Shown: piece after piece, positions 35,557 through 41,227 of the stretch
How positions within the stretch are numbered: position 1 is the stretch's first letter
Layout of the letters: every line of letters begins with the position of its first letter
Origin: Streptomyces fagopyri
Lineage (GTDB): Bacteria; Actinomycetota; Actinomycetes; Streptomycetales; Streptomycetaceae
Length of the DNA stretch: 64,000 nucleotides
Assembly: GCF_009498275.1 (NCBI RefSeq)
Contig: NZ_CP045643.1
Location: forward strand, 2,418,001 to 2,482,000
Direction: 5' to 3'
Notes under the pieces: generated by a model
What the model saw: the letters and a program-made list of their open reading frames with translations, nothing else
What the model was told of the DNA's origin: nothing
Databases searched by the model: none
Program-made: the position numbers and the translations under genes

Positions 35557-35919
35557 TTGCCTGCCGCCACGACCCGATTCGTCGAGGCCGAACGCGCGTA
35601 CCCGACGTCGCGGCGGCCCGGGCGGCCGGCCACCGTCGACGCCCACGGCCGGCGGCCGGCGAACCCCGCCGGCTTCTTCCCCCGGGACGACGGGACGATC
35701 CTGATCGGCGGACACGCGAGGGGCACCACCGAGAAGTGGCGCAATCTGCGGAAGAACCCCGAGGTCGCCCTCGTCGTCGACGGCGTGGTCGGTCTCCGGC
35801 CGTGCAAGCTCCGTGGCGTCGACGTCCGCCGTGCGGCCGAACTCCGCACCGGTCCGCACGACTTGGGCCCCCACTTCAGCGAGGAGCTGGTCCGTGTCCA
35901 CCCGCGGCGGATTCGCGGC
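35557..35919 (+). pseudogene. Decayed PPOX-class F420-dependent oxidoreductase
   Basis: About 115 residues resemble a full-length PPOX/F420 split-barrel enzyme (NPAGFFPRDDGTILIGG, TTEKWRNLRKNPEVALVVDG, TGPHDLGPHFSEELVR). The N-terminal helix carries several Leu-to-Pro type changes (AYPTSRRPGRPATVD), a Trp is replaced by Cys in LRPCKLRG, no ATG or GTG lies at the expected start (only TTG 35557 or a distant ATG 35446), and no stop occurs where the family ends. The frame instead runs on to 36198 through the opposite gene. This points to a gene in decay. Confidence 0.6.
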
Positions 35920-37351
35920 CGGGGTCCGGAGGACCGACCTCGCGGCGGCCCTCGCCCCGTGCCACCGCCTCCTCGTCCTCCGCCCGGAGGTGTCGCACCC
36001 CGTACGAACGCCACGGGCGCCAGACCTCCGGGACGTCCTCGCCGGGTGGTGCCACGTCGGGATCGCCGAGGGCGCGGGTCCGAATGGCGGCGACCGTGTG
36101 CGCGTCCAGACCGGGCAGCGCGAGCATGGCCGCCTGCGCCGCGTCGCGATCGGCACCGGCGTCGAGCCGCAGCGTGCCGTCGGCGAGGGCGGCGGTGAGC
36201 GTACCGAGGGGGCCGTCCGGCTCGGCCTCCGCGAGGACGGCCGGCTCCGGGAACACATGGGTGAGCGACTCGTGCGCGGCGTCCAGTACCTTCCCGTATC
36301 GGCGCACCAGGCGCTCCGCGGCCGGCCGGCCCACCAGGGCGCGCACGGCCAGCTCGTCCGGGTCCGCGGCGCCCGGTGACCGCAGACCGGGTCGCGCGGC
36401 GACCGAGGCCGCCAGCCGCGGATCGGCTCCCAGCCGCTCGTCCACCGCGTACGGATCGGCGTCGAGATCGAACAGCCGCCGCAACCGCTGGACGGCGGTG
36501 GTCAGATCGCGCAGGTCGGTGAGGTGGAGCCGGGTGTCGAGCCAGCCGCCCGGCTGGGAGGCCTGCCCGTCGGGACACTCGTTCACCGCGACGACCCCGG
36601 TGCCGTACGGAAGGCGGAGGGTGCGCCGGTAGGTGCGGCGGCCGCGGGGTCCGCTCATGTCCTCCACCCCCGCGACCGCCTCCTGGGCGAGGAGATCGAA
36701 GACGGCCGTCGACCGGTACGGACCCCGGTGGGCGAGGCGCAGCGGGATCCCGGCGGCCGGGGCGTCCGCGCGCCTGGCGCCGGGCCCTTCGCGCGAGGCC
36801 GCGGCGCGCAGTGCGCTGGGTGTCGAGGCGTACACCGCGCGGATCGTGTCGTTGAACTGCCGCACGCTGGCGAACCCGGCCGCGAACGCGATCTCCGTGA
36901 CGGGCAGCCCGGTGGTCTGCAACAGGACCCGCGCCGTGTGGGCCCGCTGGGCACGGGCCAGTGCGACGGGGCCCGCGCCGACCTCGGCGGTGAGCTGCCG
37001 CTGCACCTGGCGGGTGCTGTACCCGAGTCGTGCGGCGAGGCCGCCGACGCCTTCGCGGTCCACCACACCGTCACCGATCAGCCGCATGGCGCGACCCACG
37101 ACGTCGGCGCGCACGTTCCACTCCGCGGAGCCGGGCACGGCATCCGGGCGGCACCTGCGACAGGCCCGGAAGCCTGAGCCCTGGGCGGCGGCCGCGGTGG
37201 TGTAGTAGCGCACGTTCCGCTGCTTCGGCGTCACCGCCGGGCAGCTCGGCCGGCAGTAGATCCCCGTCGTCTCCACGGCGAAGAAGAACTCCCCGTCGAA
37301 CCGGGCGTCCCTGCTCCGCACGGCCTCGTACCTGGTCTCTTCATCGATCAC
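35876..37351 (-). CDS. Ada-AlkA fusion: methyl-DNA sensor and 3-methyladenine glycosylase
   Basis: A 491-aa protein. The Ada zinc domain has the four cysteines C33, C37, C64 and C67 (YCRPSC, CRRC); one takes methyl groups from phosphotriesters. An AraC-type HTH lies at about 85-185 (VGGLAARLGYSTRQVQRQL, FASVRQFNDTIR). AlkA N-terminal and HhH-GPD glycosylase domains follow (LPGLDAHTVAAIRTRALGDP). The segment between ALGDP and WRPWRSY (residue 444) is about 20 residues shorter than usual, just after the expected catalytic Asp, so glycosylase activity is doubtful. The 36-residue tail after VRHL is antisense to the decayed PPOX gene and is probably recent. The GTG start at 37351 has only a weak ribosome site. 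Confidence 0.82.
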   Translation of the reverse strand: MIDEETRYEAVRSRDARFDGEFFFAVETTGIYCRPSCPAVTPKQRNVRYYTTAAAAQGSGFRACRRCRPDAVPGSAEWNVRADVVGRAMRLIGDGVVDREGVGGLAARLGYSTRQVQRQLTAEVGAGPVALARAQRAHTARVLLQTTGLPVTEIAFAAGFASVRQFNDTIRAVYASTPSALRAAASREGPGARRADAPAAGIPLRLAHRGPYRSTAVFDLLAQEAVAGVEDMSGPRGRRTYRRTLRLPYGTGVVAVNECPDGQASQPGGWLDTRLHLTDLRDLTTAVQRLRRLFDLDADPYAVDERLGADPRLAASVAARPGLRSPGAADPDELAVRALVGRPAAERLVRRYGKVLDAAHESLTHVFPEPAVLAEAEPDGPLGTLTAALADGTLRLDAGADRDAAQAAMLALPGLDAHTVAAIRTRALGDPDVAPPGEDVPEVWRPWRSYGVRHLRAEDEEAVARGEGRREVGPPDPGRESAAGGHGPAPR

Positions 37352-38118
37352 GAGTCCCAGTGTGCGGGGCGGCTGCCGCCGGGGCTGGCGGGAATCGGAC
37401 CTGACGCTGCTACCCGTTCCCGGGGACCGCCGCCCCCGGACCCCCGCATCGGCCCCAAGGGCCTCGTCCTCAAGCGCCGGACGGGCTGGGGATGCGGGCC
37501 TGCGCCGGATCGTTCCCGATGGGCCCGGGCGTGCGGGCGTGCGGGCGTGCGGGCGTGCGGGCGTGCGCTACATGGTTTCGGACAGGCTGGGCGCACGCCG
37601 GGAGACCGCCGCCAGGCTCACCCACTTCAGCCTGTCCGGCGTTAGCGGACACAGTCCCCTGACCTGGGGGTCCCGGACGGGCCCGGCGTACGAGCCCACA
37701 CCAAGAAACCGACGCCGCGCTCACACACTTCAGCCCGTCCGGCGATTGAGGACGAGCCCTTCGGGCGATGGCGGGAATCCAGGACGCGCCCGGCGTACGA
37801 GCCCACACCAAGAAACCGACGCCAGGCCCGCGCATTTCAAGCCCGTCCGGCGATTGAGGACGAGCCCTTCGGGCGCAGGCGGGAATCCAGGACGCGCCCG
37901 GCGTACGAGCCCACACCAAGAAACCGACGCCAGGCCCGCGCATTTCAAGCCCGTCCGGCGATTGAGGACGAGCCTTTCGGGCGAAGGCGGGAATCCAGGG
38001 GGCGCAACCCCTTGGCGGGGGTCCGGGGGGCGCAGCCCCTTGGCGGGGGTCCAGGGGGCCGCACCCCATTGCCGGAGCCGGGGGGGGCCGGCCCCCCACC
38101 CCCTGCCCAGACCCAGTG
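37352..38118. other. 767-base repeat-rich intergenic region
   Basis: No gene is seen. From left to right it holds an inverted copy of the GCCCGTCCGGCG-type repeat (about 37450-37490), four perfect GTGCGGGC octamers (37531-37562), three 108-bp tandem units (37681-38000), and two copies of a unit containing CCCCTTGGCGGGGGTCC (about 38007-38053). Open frames through it are artefacts of the repeats. Confidence 0.8.
37681..38000. repeat. Three tandem ~108-bp repeats
   Basis: Units begin at 37681, 37788 and 37896. Each runs from GCCCGGCGTACGAGCCCACA through AAGAAACCGACGCC, then GCCCGTCCGGCGATTGAGG and a small GCCC-TTC-GGGC hairpin, to GGCGGGAATCCAG. Units 2 and 3 are almost identical. The core GTCCGGCGATTGAGGACGAG is familiar from many Streptomyces intergenic regions, where it behaves like a REP-type element. 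The spacing is too long and too few copies exist for CRISPR. Confidence 0.9.
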
Positions 38119-39210
38119 TCAACGTCCCCGTTTGGCCTCCATGGCCGCCTTCCCCTCCGCCCCCTTCCGCTTCCAGTCCCGGCGGATCTCCGCCCGCAGC
38201 CGCGCGTCGGTCTTCGCGACGATGCGCTGGTTCTCTCGCAGGAGCTTGCGGTAGCTGTCGAGGCGCCGTTCGGGCAGGGCACCGGACTCGACGGCGGTGA
38301 GCACGGCGCAGCCGGGCTCCGCGACGTGCGCGCAGTCGTGGAAACGACAGCCCGCGGCGAATTCCTCGATCTCCGAGAAGACCTGCCCGACCCCGGACTC
38401 GGCGTCCCAGAGGCCGACGCCGCGCAGTCCGGGCGTGTCGATGAGGACGCCGCCGCCGGGGAGGGCGAGGAGGTTGCGGGTGGTCGTGGTGTGGCGGCCC
38501 TTGCCGTCCACGTCACGCGCGGCCCGCACATCCATCACGTCCTCGCCGATCAGCGCGTTGGCGAGGGTCGACTTGCCCGCGCCGGACTGTCCGAGGAGCA
38601 CGGTCGTGCCTCCGGACAGGACGGCGGCCAGCACGTCGAGCCCGTCCCCGGTGGCGGCGCTCACCGGGAGTACGGCGACCCCCGGCGCGGTGGTCTCCAC
38701 GTCCTGTACGAGGTGACCGAGTGTGACGGGGTCCGGCACCAGGTCGGCCTTGGTGAGGACGACGACCGGTTGCGCGCCGGACTCCCAGGCCAGCGCGAGG
38801 AAGCGTTCGATACGGCCGAGTTCGAGTTCCACGGCGAGCGACACGGCGACGACGGCGAAGTCGACGTTGGCCGCCAGGATCTGTCCTTCGGACCGCTTGG
38901 AGGAGGTGGAGCGCACGAAGGCGGTGCGGCGCGGCAGATACGTGCGGACGTAGCGCGGGGTGCCCGCGGGTTCGACGGCGACCCAGTCGCCGGTGCACAC
39001 GACCCGCAGCGGATCGTGCGGGGTCACGAACGCGGTGTCCGCGCGCAGGACACCGTCGGCGGTGACCACGTCGCACTGACCGCGGTCGACGCGGACGACC
39101 CGGCCGGCCAGCAGCCCTTCGGCCACGTACGGGGCGAACTCATCCGCCCAGGCGTCGTCCCAGCCGTACGACTGGAGAGCGTGTGCCGCAGGAAAAACGG
39201 AGGAAGTCAA
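38119..39210 (-). CDS. rsgA: Ribosome small-subunit-dependent GTPase A
   Basis: A 363-aa circularly permuted GTPase. An OB-fold N-terminal domain (about 35-105) precedes the G-domain in the order G4 (LTKADL), G5, G1 (GQSGAGKST), G2 (RHTTTTRN) and G3 (DTPGLRG). The C-terminal zinc site is CRFHDCAH...C. RsgA checks and releases late-assembling 30S subunits. The start is the rare TTG at 39210, with AAGGG six bases upstream. That ribosome site is paired in a small hairpin and preceded by a 23-codon ORF. To my knowledge Streptomyces often has another rsgA near aroA, so this may be a second copy. Confidence 0.9.
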   Translation of the reverse strand: MTSSVFPAAHALQSYGWDDAWADEFAPYVAEGLLAGRVVRVDRGQCDVVTADGVLRADTAFVTPHDPLRVVCTGDWVAVEPAGTPRYVRTYLPRRTAFVRSTSSKRSEGQILAANVDFAVVAVSLAVELELGRIERFLALAWESGAQPVVVLTKADLVPDPVTLGHLVQDVETTAPGVAVLPVSAATGDGLDVLAAVLSGGTTVLLGQSGAGKSTLANALIGEDVMDVRAARDVDGKGRHTTTTRNLLALPGGGVLIDTPGLRGVGLWDAESGVGQVFSEIEEFAAGCRFHDCAHVAEPGCAVLTAVESGALPERRLDSYRKLLRENQRIVAKTDARLRAEIRRDWKRKGAEGKAAMEAKRGR

Positions 39211-39270
39211 GGGAAACCCTTCACAAGGGTGGCCCCGGCGCGCGCACTGTGGCGCGAAGAAGGTGGAAGG
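39211..39270 (-). promoter_or_regulatory. Hairpin covering the rsgA ribosome-binding site
   Basis: On the minus strand, ACCCTT-GTG-AAGGGT (39230-39216) forms a 6-bp stem with a 3-base loop whose right arm is the AAGGG Shine-Dalgarno of rsgA. The TTG start follows six bases later. The hairpin lies 40 bases after the stop of the 23-codon ORF. This is the layout of a translation-attenuation leader, but the stem is short. Confidence 0.5.
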
Positions 39271-39342
39271 TCAGCCGGCGGCCACGGAAGTGGACTTGAT
39301 GAACTTCTGGATGCGGGCAACGCCCATCTCAGTGACAGCCAT
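39271..39342 (-). CDS. 23-aa leader or small peptide upstream of rsgA
   Basis: A 72-base ORF with an excellent ribosome site (AAGGAGG, eight bases before ATG). The peptide starts MAVTEMGVARIQ, has a basic amphipathic middle (QKFIKS) and ends STSVAAG. It has no Cys and no signal peptide. Codon choice is less GC-extreme than in normal genes. It lies 60 bases before rsgA on the same strand, so it may be a leader that couples rsgA translation to ribosome behaviour. It could equally be an independent small membrane-active peptide. It is not a family I recognise. Confidence 0.6.
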   Translation of the reverse strand: MAVTEMGVARIQKFIKSTSVAAG

Positions 39343-39545
39343 CGGTCACACCTCCTTCAACGCTCAGCCGGTGACGGCGGCCGACGGCCACCGCGTGAAG
39401 CGATCTTCACCATATAGAGGGCCCGTATTCGGCGCCACCGGTTTTCCGCTCCCTCGGGGGACCGGGCCGGCGCACCCGCCCACGCGGCCGGGGCGAGCCC
39501 TTCCGCCCTCCCCGGCCAACCCCTTTGCCCCCACCCACCACGGAC
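39343..39545 (-). promoter_or_regulatory. Promoter and operator-like dyad before the small ORF and rsgA
   Basis: Reading on the minus strand, CTATATGG is followed at once by the dyad GTGAAG-ATCG-CTTCAC (39410-39395). If TATATG is the -10, the dyad covers the transcription start, as a repressor site would. The leader from there to the small ORF is about 50-60 bases. The rest of this 200-base stretch, up to the sigma-like/CBM gene, holds nothing recognised. Confidence 0.45.
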
Positions 39546-41024
39546 TCAACTGCCGTCGTCGCACCTGTCGTCGTTCAGAGTGAAGTCGCGCGGGGCCGAG
39601 TTGGTGCCGCTCCACGAACCGAGGAAGCCGAAGGCGACGGTGCCCTTCGCGGCGACGGACTTGTTGTAGTCGGCGGCGGTGGCGGTGACCCCGGCGCCGT
39701 GCTGGGCGAAGGCGGCGTCCCACATCTGGCCGACGCGCTGGCCGTCGTCGAAGGTCCAGCCGAGCCGCCAGCCGCTGAGGGCCCGTGCCGAGGTGACGGT
39801 GACGGTGGCCTGGAAGCCGTCGGGCCACTCGTTGACGATCTCGTACTTCACCTCGCAGGACGCCGGCGCGCTCTTGGTGACGTCCGCCGGTGGGTCCGAC
39901 TTGTTCGCGGGCTCGGACGACTCTCCCTGGGCCTCGGGATCGGAACCGACCTCCGGCCGGGTCGTCGAAGCCGCGGTGGCGGTGGCGGGCGGATCGGACA
40001 CGGCCGCCGGCGAGGGTGGCACGGGCTCCGCCACCGGCTGTCGCTCGCCCGGCGCGTCGCTCGCGGGCGCACCACCGTCGTGGGAGCCGCCGAAGGGCAT
40101 CAAGGAGACCGCGAGTGCCAGTGCCGACACGACGAGGGCCGCCACCAGGATCCCGGTCCGGCCGATCCGGGGCCGGACCGGCCTGCCCTCGGCCAGGCCG
40201 GTGTCCACGGCCGCGTCCGTCCGGCCGCCGGTCAGCCCCGCCTCCGCGGCACGGCGGCGCCGTTCCAGATACGCGAGGCCGCCCCAGCCGATCACGCCGC
40301 CGGAGATCGCCGCGGGCAGTCCCCCTTCGTGCAGCCGCAGACAGGCGGCCGCCTCCGCGCACCGCACGCAGCGCGCGAGGTGCCGCGAGAGGTCTCCGGG
40401 GGTCTCGGCGCCGGACGAGCGGGTGACCGCGTCGAGGAGCCGTGCGTAGCTGCGGCAGTCGGCGTCCATCGGCGTGTCGAGGTGATTGCGATGGCAACGG
40501 TCCCGGAACAGCGCCCGCACCTGGGTGAGTTCGGTGGTGACGGCCGCCGGGTCCAGGCCGAGCCGCCGGGCCACGGCGGGCAGCGGCAGCGACTCGACCT
40601 CGGCCAGCCAGAGCAGAGCCGCGTCCGGCTCCTGCATGTCCTGAAGGCCGCGCAGCGCGATGGGGCGGTGCAGCGGCGGCCCGGTGTAGCGCCCGGCCTT
40701 CTCGGAGTTGAGCCACAGACGCAGGTCGGGGTCGAGCCGGTGGCCCAGACCGCCCGCCTCCCAGGCGGCGGCCGCGACCCGGACCGAGGTCAGCATCAGG
40801 GGGATGCGGGGCAGCCTGAGCGCCCTGCGCCCGGTGCCGGTGGTCTTCGACGCCGCGGTGGCGGCGCGCAGTTCGGTGATGCCGTGCGTGAAGGCCTCGG
40901 TCGCCAGTTGCGTGGCCGCGGCCGAACCCGACGTGCACAGATCGGCGTACGACAGGACCGCGTCCCAGCACTCCGAGAGCAGTGCGGCCTCGGCGGCGTC
41001 CTGGGGGGTCGGCAGGTCGGGCAT
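39546..41024 (-). CDS. Sigma-like / zinc-finger / transmembrane / CBM2 fusion protein
   Basis: A 492-aa protein with an unusual layout. Residues about 10-190 look like sigma-factor region 2 and 4 remnants (LSYADLCTSGSAAATQLATE; VESLPLPAVARRLGLDPAAV). A short zinc-type motif HLARCVRCAEA follows, as in ZAS anti-sigma factors. One membrane helix (GILVAALVVSALALAVSLM, about 285) leads to a Pro/Ser/Thr linker. The C-terminal 100 residues are a family 2 carbohydrate-binding module (WPDGFQATVTVTSARALSGW, GFLGSWSGTN, terminal Cys pair). It probably exposes a cellulose- or chitin-binding module outside and a regulatory domain inside. ATG 41024 has AGGAG at six bases; upstream starts are weaker. Confidence 0.8.
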   Translation of the reverse strand: MPDLPTPQDAAEAALLSECWDAVLSYADLCTSGSAAATQLATEAFTHGITELRAATAASKTTGTGRRALRLPRIPLMLTSVRVAAAAWEAGGLGHRLDPDLRLWLNSEKAGRYTGPPLHRPIALRGLQDMQEPDAALLWLAEVESLPLPAVARRLGLDPAAVTTELTQVRALFRDRCHRNHLDTPMDADCRSYARLLDAVTRSSGAETPGDLSRHLARCVRCAEAAACLRLHEGGLPAAISGGVIGWGGLAYLERRRRAAEAGLTGGRTDAAVDTGLAEGRPVRPRIGRTGILVAALVVSALALAVSLMPFGGSHDGGAPASDAPGERQPVAEPVPPSPAAVSDPPATATAASTTRPEVGSDPEAQGESSEPANKSDPPADVTKSAPASCEVKYEIVNEWPDGFQATVTVTSARALSGWRLGWTFDDGQRVGQMWDAAFAQHGAGVTATAADYNKSVAAKGTVAFGFLGSWSGTNSAPRDFTLNDDRCDDGS

Positions 41025-41227
41025 GGGGGGCTCCTGCATCAACTGCTTCCATGTGCTACGTCAAAGAACGCAAATTCCAACTCATCTTCCGTACTGGAGA
41101 GTTGGTAACCATCTCAACGACGGGGCCCGAGCCTTTCACGGTTCCCACACAACTGACAAGCGAGGCATTCATTGATGGGGCAAGCGGTTGCGGCGCCTCT
41201 CGTGGCGCCTCTCCCGCCACGACGGAA

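Follow-up and report, generated by a model that had tools for sequence, protein, structure and literature searches.

Erm-type attenuators, such as those of ermC and ermB, place a leader open reading frame (ORF) ahead of a main gene whose Shine-Dalgarno sequence (SD) is sequestered, contain pairings that compete with one another, and respond through drug-dependent stalling on the leader peptide. The upstream ORF (uORF) leader of whiB7/wblC, known from Streptomyces and mycobacteria, is part of the actinomycete antibiotic-stress circuit, and the translation state of its uORF selects between RNA structures; the wblC leader acts through an anti-terminator and a terminator of the Rho-independent kind (PMC11550727). 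The leaders are5scL1 and tiaAL of Streptomyces coelicolor ABCF genes belong to the antibiotic response, with drugs stalling ribosomes at the uORF start codon (PMC12421871). A survey of non-coding RNAs in 50 genomes likewise put forward uORF candidates as comparative motifs in bacterial leaders, with ilvB and fthC shown as examples and rsgA absent from the main text (PMC11109978).

Here we describe a leader upstream of an rsgA gene in Streptomyces fagopyri. Like the erm attenuators, it has a leader ORF and sequesters the SD of the gene that follows, and its pairings may compete, but the uORF is conserved as RNA and not as a peptide. It resembles the whiB7/wblC leader in its predicted circuit and in the proposed selection of RNA structures by uORF translation, whereas no terminator was found and it is the rsgA SD that is sequestered. 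The leaders are5scL1 and tiaAL differ from it in the genes they precede, in their much shorter uORFs and in attenuation that is transcriptional (PMC12421871). We found no report of the rsgA leader in the available text of the open-licence literature, and by sequence comparison it is probably a new form of translation attenuation, with conservation at the level of RNA.

The accessory rsgA gene and its leader

The window analysed here is a stretch of 64,000 nucleotides of the S. fagopyri genome; the features of the locus are listed in Table 1. The rsgA product matches PF03193 with 164.4 bits (Pfam) and TIGR00157 with 155.5 bits, above the cut-off of 100, and scores under the cut-offs of the longer NCBIfam RsgA models NF008931 and NF008932. 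As judged from these profiles, the gene encodes RsgA, with 30S binding and GTPase activity as predicted functions. A second RsgA is encoded in the same genome at G000:C1:3466816, making the window gene one of two copies. Upstream of the second copy lies a coding sequence that we take by eye for aroA, and no leader of the window type was seen in the 601 bases inspected there.

Table 1. Features of the rsgA locus, in window coordinates
Feature	Position	Strand	Basis
rsgA, accessory paralogue, 363 aa, TTG start	38119..39210	-	PF03193 and TIGR00157 matches
rsgA SD hairpin ACCCTT-GTG-AAGGGT (39229-39230 common to helix P)	39216..39230	-	sequence, comparison
Helix P, 3' arm GCCGGGGCCAC	39229..39239	-	pair counts
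Variable GC-rich hairpin CGCGCCACAGTGCGCG, between the arms of P	39241..39256	-	sequence; left out of covariation counts
uORF, 23 codons plus TGA, 72 bases, ATG...TGA, MAVTEMGVARIQKFIKSTSVAAG	39271..39342	-	sequence; comparative rule
Helix P, 5' arm GTGGCC-G-CCGGC, last four uORF codons, one bulged base	39274..39285	-	pair counts
Helix H1 partner CACTTCC, codons 17-19, complementary to SD1	39286..39292	-	duplex energies versus permutation
uORF Shine-Dalgarno AAGGAGGTG (SD1)	39349..39357	-	sequence
-10 TATGGT, 66 nt before uORF start	39409..39414	-	comparison; too weak for consensus scan
-35 TGGCGC	39432..39437	-	comparison; too weak for consensus scan
WblC/WhiB7-type box GAAAAC, 3 nt before -35	39441..39446	-	comparison

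On the minus strand, the last base of the uORF's AAGGAGG lies 8 bases ahead of its ATG, 60 bases (39211-39270) separate its TGA from the rsgA TTG, and the AAGGG of the SD hairpin sits 6 bases before that TTG. The uORF, its strong SD, the gap, the TTG start and the stem around AAGGG had all been reported in a preliminary description of the locus, and each was confirmed at its position. Two features of erm-type attenuators are thus visible: a putatively translated leader ORF with its own SD, and a gene SD within a hairpin. A search of the S. fagopyri genome with the uORF peptide returned no second copy. Folded as a single sequence, the window leader is unremarkable (z -1.33), and the evidence presented below is therefore comparative.

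The surroundings of the gene hold further elements. Downstream of rsgA, CCCGTCCGGCGATTGAGGACGAG occurs three times with 108-base spacing, at window positions 37734, 37842 and 37950, and a protein with Ada zinc-binding, AraC and AlkA_N domains is encoded at 35876-37351 on the same strand as rsgA. Directly upstream of the leader, 39546-41042 encodes a protein of 498 aa whose C-terminal part is a cellulose-binding domain (CBM_2) and whose remainder is without a Pfam match.

Recurrence of the leader and conservation of its uORF

A protein search found an rsgA match in all 150 genomes of a genus sample, with either paralogue counted, and upstream regions were inspected for 110 of these genomes. By a scripted rule, a uORF of 22-24 codons occurs in 97 of the 110, ending in TGA in every case and preceded by GGAG or GAGG in 95 (the exceptions are L026 and L098); of the rsgA starts, also assigned by rule, 108 are TTG and two are GTG. 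In L026, as judged by eye, two GGTGGC repeats flank the place where the uORF SD has been lost, and the start that remains is GTG. The 13 upstreams missed by the rule are variants on inspection by eye: five differ in the second codon of the frame or begin it with TTG/GTG (L034, L080, L093, L099, L100), four have a longer frame (L074, L085, L095, L116) and four a 40-51-codon frame that overlaps rsgA and has its real TGA 47-71 nt past the rsgA start (L109, L112, L114, L117). Among the 97 tandem forms, the uORF terminates 36-98 nt short of the rsgA start; in nine of the ten compact loci examined, it terminates 41-71 nt past that start. The L168 variant, unlike the other compact forms, has a 28-codon uORF whose stop falls 8 nt before the rsgA TTG. 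Among the best 80 named loci (79 Streptomyces and one Kitasatospora, at least 11 of them repeating DNA already in the 110), a looser rule that does not require an SD found the uORF in 79.

With a covariance model, the leader was detected in 121 of 150 Streptomycetaceae genomes and in 13 of 17 genera, counting weak matches up to an E-value of 0.1; a class-wide search of 246 genomes gave no match with E < 0.001 outside the genus, and Rfam gave none up to E 1. Forty matches selected from the family-wide and class-wide searches divide into 33 before an RsgA gene, two of these genes being aligned only in part, and seven that are not. Of 20 lower-ranking R2 matches, L366 precedes rsgA and L367-L369 and L380 precede GNAT-like genes, while the other 15 were judged by eye to be chance matches in or at other genes. 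The frame, the stem and the TTG, whose joint conservation the preliminary description had proposed to check, recur together across Streptomyces and other Streptomycetaceae. By this comparison, the arrangement of uORF, SD, hairpin and TTG is real and beyond chance, and it constitutes a Streptomycetaceae-wide, putatively regulatory leader.

Two unusual loci were noted. In L157 (G263), the leader stands before only about 60 aligned residues of rsgA, and a second copy of the leader lies 7 kb away in the same genome. In L176 (G375), from another actinomycete family, a 23-codon uORF, MAVPVMSRAFDGAQSALFTSPAG, precedes a RIO1-domain kinase gene (E 0.002) and may be a chance match; no member of the RIO1 family was found in the S. 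fagopyri genome, so this uORF remains a lead.

The uORF differs from rsgA in how it varies. Across 80 uORFs of 23 codons, pN/pS is 1.74, compared with 0.69 for the two shifted frames. Where uORF and rsgA were compared in a common set of 19 genomes, the uORF has a pS of 0.09 and a pN of 0.19 (ratio 2.08, about 2.1) and rsgA a pS of 0.37 and a pN of 0.09 (ratio 0.25); 27 windows of 22 codons along rsgA range from 0.06 to 0.58, all under the uORF value. The quiet sites of the 80 uORFs are third codon positions and paired stretches. The start, the frame and the TGA are kept through whole-codon length changes in the 97 leaders, and this persistence, together with the quiet third positions, indicates that the frame is most likely translated and that nucleotides are what selection keeps. 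Residues V3, A9 and G23 are invariant in all 80, which would fit a functional 23-residue peptide; with the uORF ratio above 1 against 0.25 for rsgA, and the quiet sites falling where codon third positions and pairing lie, we rejected such a product as very improbable, and the earlier suggestion that the small peptide acts by itself is disfavoured. The same ratio speaks against a conserved stalling peptide of the erm-like kind, which was not found. An amino-acid attenuator was also rejected: the uORFs are without an amino-acid codon run, the longest run of a single residue being 1-3 in 101 uORFs.

Pairings of the leader before rsgA and methyltransferase genes

The end of the uORF pairs with the base of the rsgA SD hairpin in a helix, P, with the consensus GUGGYC-N-CCGGC (codons 20-23) against GCCGGGRCCRC; the stop codon follows directly on the 5' arm, and few uORF positions vary as much as the bulged base, codon 22.1. 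Helix P was proposed by eye and counted afterwards; it was absent from the RNAalifold result for 98 leaders aligned with MAFFT. In 79 of the 97 leaders, chosen by a 3'-arm pattern that favours P, 867 of 869 cells are paired, a value reached by one of 5000 shuffles; several of the 18 excluded leaders still pair by eye. In a set of 46 leaders made without a 3'-arm filter (A1; 48 non-redundant leaders of the 97, with L026 and L101 left out), 99.2% of 504 cells are paired and 10 cells show double changes, with 0 of 500 shuffles as high; two of the five measures, the counts of doubly changed pairs and of additional pair types, are not above shuffles. The named loci, again filtered by the 3'-arm pattern, gave 706 of 715 cells paired in 65 of 79 leaders. 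All these shuffle tests ignore relatedness among the leaders.

Helix P and the rsgA SD hairpin overlap by two bases, RC (39229-39230); by pattern matching, 84 of 101 leaders have this layout. Covariation links the shared base to uORF position -11 (UA 24, UG 15, CG 7, no CA). The SD hairpin itself is paired in 92.9% of 266 cells, with covariation mostly within shuffles (three of five measures). The preliminary description had held the shortness of this hairpin against the case; the hairpin is indeed short, but it is only part of the device, as helix P joins the end of the uORF to its base. The two elements are contiguous and could stack coaxially, and with P formed, a 4-bp SD hairpin might still stack on P. 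A further helix, H1, pairs SD1 with codons 17-19: the leaders' own duplexes average -14.2 kcal/mol in 96 rsgA leaders, against -13.6 kcal/mol when permuted (0 of 200 as low), and the window leader gives -11.6 kcal/mol. The SD of methyltransferase leaders with the rsgA region gives -10.7 kcal/mol.

S. fagopyri carries a second such leader ahead of a SAM methyltransferase gene, with GAAAAC upstream (G000:C1:1892420-1892565; L197 / L308); elsewhere, leaders of this type stand before methyltransferase genes or, often, methyltransferase-GNAT fusions. The methyltransferase gene occurs in 30 of 101 genomes (E 1e-40), with a uORF by rule at 27 of the 30 loci; no consistent WblC box was found in these leaders. 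We aligned 19 of 26 methyltransferase references with 17 rsgA leaders without a 3'-arm filter (A2), excluding L315, L322, L323, L326, L330, L332 and L334 for odd ends or starts. In this joint alignment, helix P is paired in 97.8% of 358 cells with 28 double-change cells (0 of 500 shuffles), and versions of P slid along the alignment reach 60.5% at most. At pair -11, the 19 methyltransferase leaders have G-C or G-U and the 17 from rsgA have U-A, U-G or C-G; this pair accounts for 17 of the 28 double changes, which may be one event between the families, and the other 11 lie on three other pairs. Leaders with uORFs of 21-22 codons precede GNAT-like genes at five loci (L163, L367, L368, L369 and L380; Pfam checked on one), where the uORF SD can pair with the uORF end at -16.8 to -20.3 kcal/mol.

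These pairings bear on the idea that a protein or ligand binds the leader, for instance RsgA itself through a 30S-like mimic, with the uORF serving only as part of the fold. The constraint on RNA spans the uORF, and the partner of SD1 is a CACCUCC-like stretch similar to the 3' end of 16S rRNA. A frame with a strong SD and a TGA is nevertheless kept through whole-codon length changes, the leader also stands before genes unrelated to RsgA, and the Rfam search was empty; we regard such binding as improbable.

A proposed ribosome-responsive switch and its WblC-type promoter

We favour a reading, at a probability of roughly 0.58, in which the leader acts in cis as an RNA switch of the accessory RsgA gene and responds to translation, with ribosome position as the signal, relayed through RNA structure. 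A ribosome finishing the uORF would cover the 5' arm of P, so that P could not form; RCCCUU would then pair fully with AAGGGU, and rsgA translation would be low. A ribosome stalled at the uORF start, by ribosome-targeting drugs or starvation, would leave codons 17-23 free; P would form, capture the two leading bases of the arm that sequesters the SD, and allow rsgA to be translated. What is sensed would be the position of the ribosome, not the sequence of the peptide. In the overlapping forms, a ribosome running along the uORF would block the rsgA start directly, giving the same sign. Translation of the uORF, control of rsgA, the sign of that control and the antibiotic signal are what we infer from these comparisons.

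By folding of 80 leaders, opening the rsgA SD costs 5.95 kcal/mol with a ribosome masked at uORF codon 1, 6.46-6.47 kcal/mol at codons 7-9 and 6.56-6.69 kcal/mol at codons 17-24; with no ribosome, the cost is 6.44 kcal/mol, near the value of the finished state. Opening is costlier with the ribosome at the stop than at the start in 62 of 96 leaders and cheaper in 34. The effect is about 0.6 kcal/mol in a model that omits stacking and kinetics. The model leans towards a ribosome held at the uORF start opening rsgA and a finishing ribosome closing it, as a small effect that does not extend to stalls at codons 7-9, and this sign would be in line with that of the wblC uORF. As the ribosome-free state resembles the finished one, failed initiation would not open the SD in the model. 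That resemblance, and the arrangement in L168, weaken our confidence in the sign: the leader is likely to be translation-responsive, but that stalling at the start turns rsgA on has somewhat less than even odds.

The opposite sign would arise if ribosomes completing the uORF melted P and the SD hairpin stacked on it, so that uORF translation was needed for rsgA expression. The contiguity of the two elements, with the stop directly after the 5' arm of P, would suit such coupling, as would the stop 8 nt before the rsgA start in L168 and the ribosome-free leader folding about as closed as the finished one. The stops of the 97 tandem forms and of nine of the ten compact loci are far from the rsgA start for reinitiation, and folding slightly favours the other sign; we consider positive coupling rather unlikely.

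Early termination at P or another stem, decided by uORF translation, has a precedent in the same circuit in wblC itself (PMC11550727). At the window locus, no terminator-like site occurs in 39150-39480, and the longest T run between the uORF stop and position +12 of the rsgA start is 2-4 in 101 leaders. Intrinsic termination was rejected on these counts, and transcription attenuation as a whole appears improbable.

A consensus scan of 39150-39480 found no sigma-70-like promoter, and the promoter claim rests on comparison. Scored without the AT box, a promoter was called in 100 of 110 upstreams, leaving 10 without, and its -10 lies mostly 50-89 nt before the uORF. Ahead of the -35, positions -8 to -5 are A/T in 90, 100, 100 and 100% of the called promoters, against a background of 31%, and an AT box is present in all 100. 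A strict GAAAWY rule is satisfied in 28 of 110 upstreams and a looser box rule in 45, each against 0 of 2200 shuffles. The WblC box of S. coelicolor is GAAAWY, 3 nt upstream of the -35, and WblC-activated genes are given there together with paralogues, RsgA/EngC SCO6149 and SCO5211 among them (PMC7157823). SCO6149 would be the activated copy, judging from the word order of that passage, and WblC-dependent induction of RsgA is reported there at the RNA level (PMC7157823). We did not find SCO6149 elsewhere in the available open-licence literature.

The leader is predicted to belong to a gene with a WblC/WhiB7-type promoter. A transcription start downstream of the uORF, named in the preliminary description as evidence against the leader, is not what comparison indicates, the called promoter lying upstream. 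The window rsgA is the putative SCO6149 orthologue, going by its promoter box and by the other copy adjoining the presumed aroA; judging by gene numbers, the other RsgA copy of S. coelicolor presumably lies beside aroA as well. Feedback from the state of the 30S subunit had been suggested earlier; given two RsgA copies, with the WblC/WhiB7-type promoter on the window copy, antibiotic or translation stress is likelier than plain 30S feedback, and the context of the RsgA switch is probably antibiotic stress.

Tentatively, and as a possibility we would not yet call probable, homologous uORF-RNA switches before rsgA and SAM methyltransferase or methyltransferase-GNAT genes, and more loosely before stand-alone GNAT genes, may form a second, translational tier of the actinomycete ribosome-stress response, with ribosome traffic on a peptide-indifferent uORF as the sensor. 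From recent work on S. coelicolor, it was inferred that translation may add a further layer of control over proteins of the WblC regulon (PMC12421871). The rsgA leader is a specific candidate for this, open to experimental test. Its uORF is conserved as RNA in two unrelated gene families, and peptide-based searches would undervalue uORFs of this kind.
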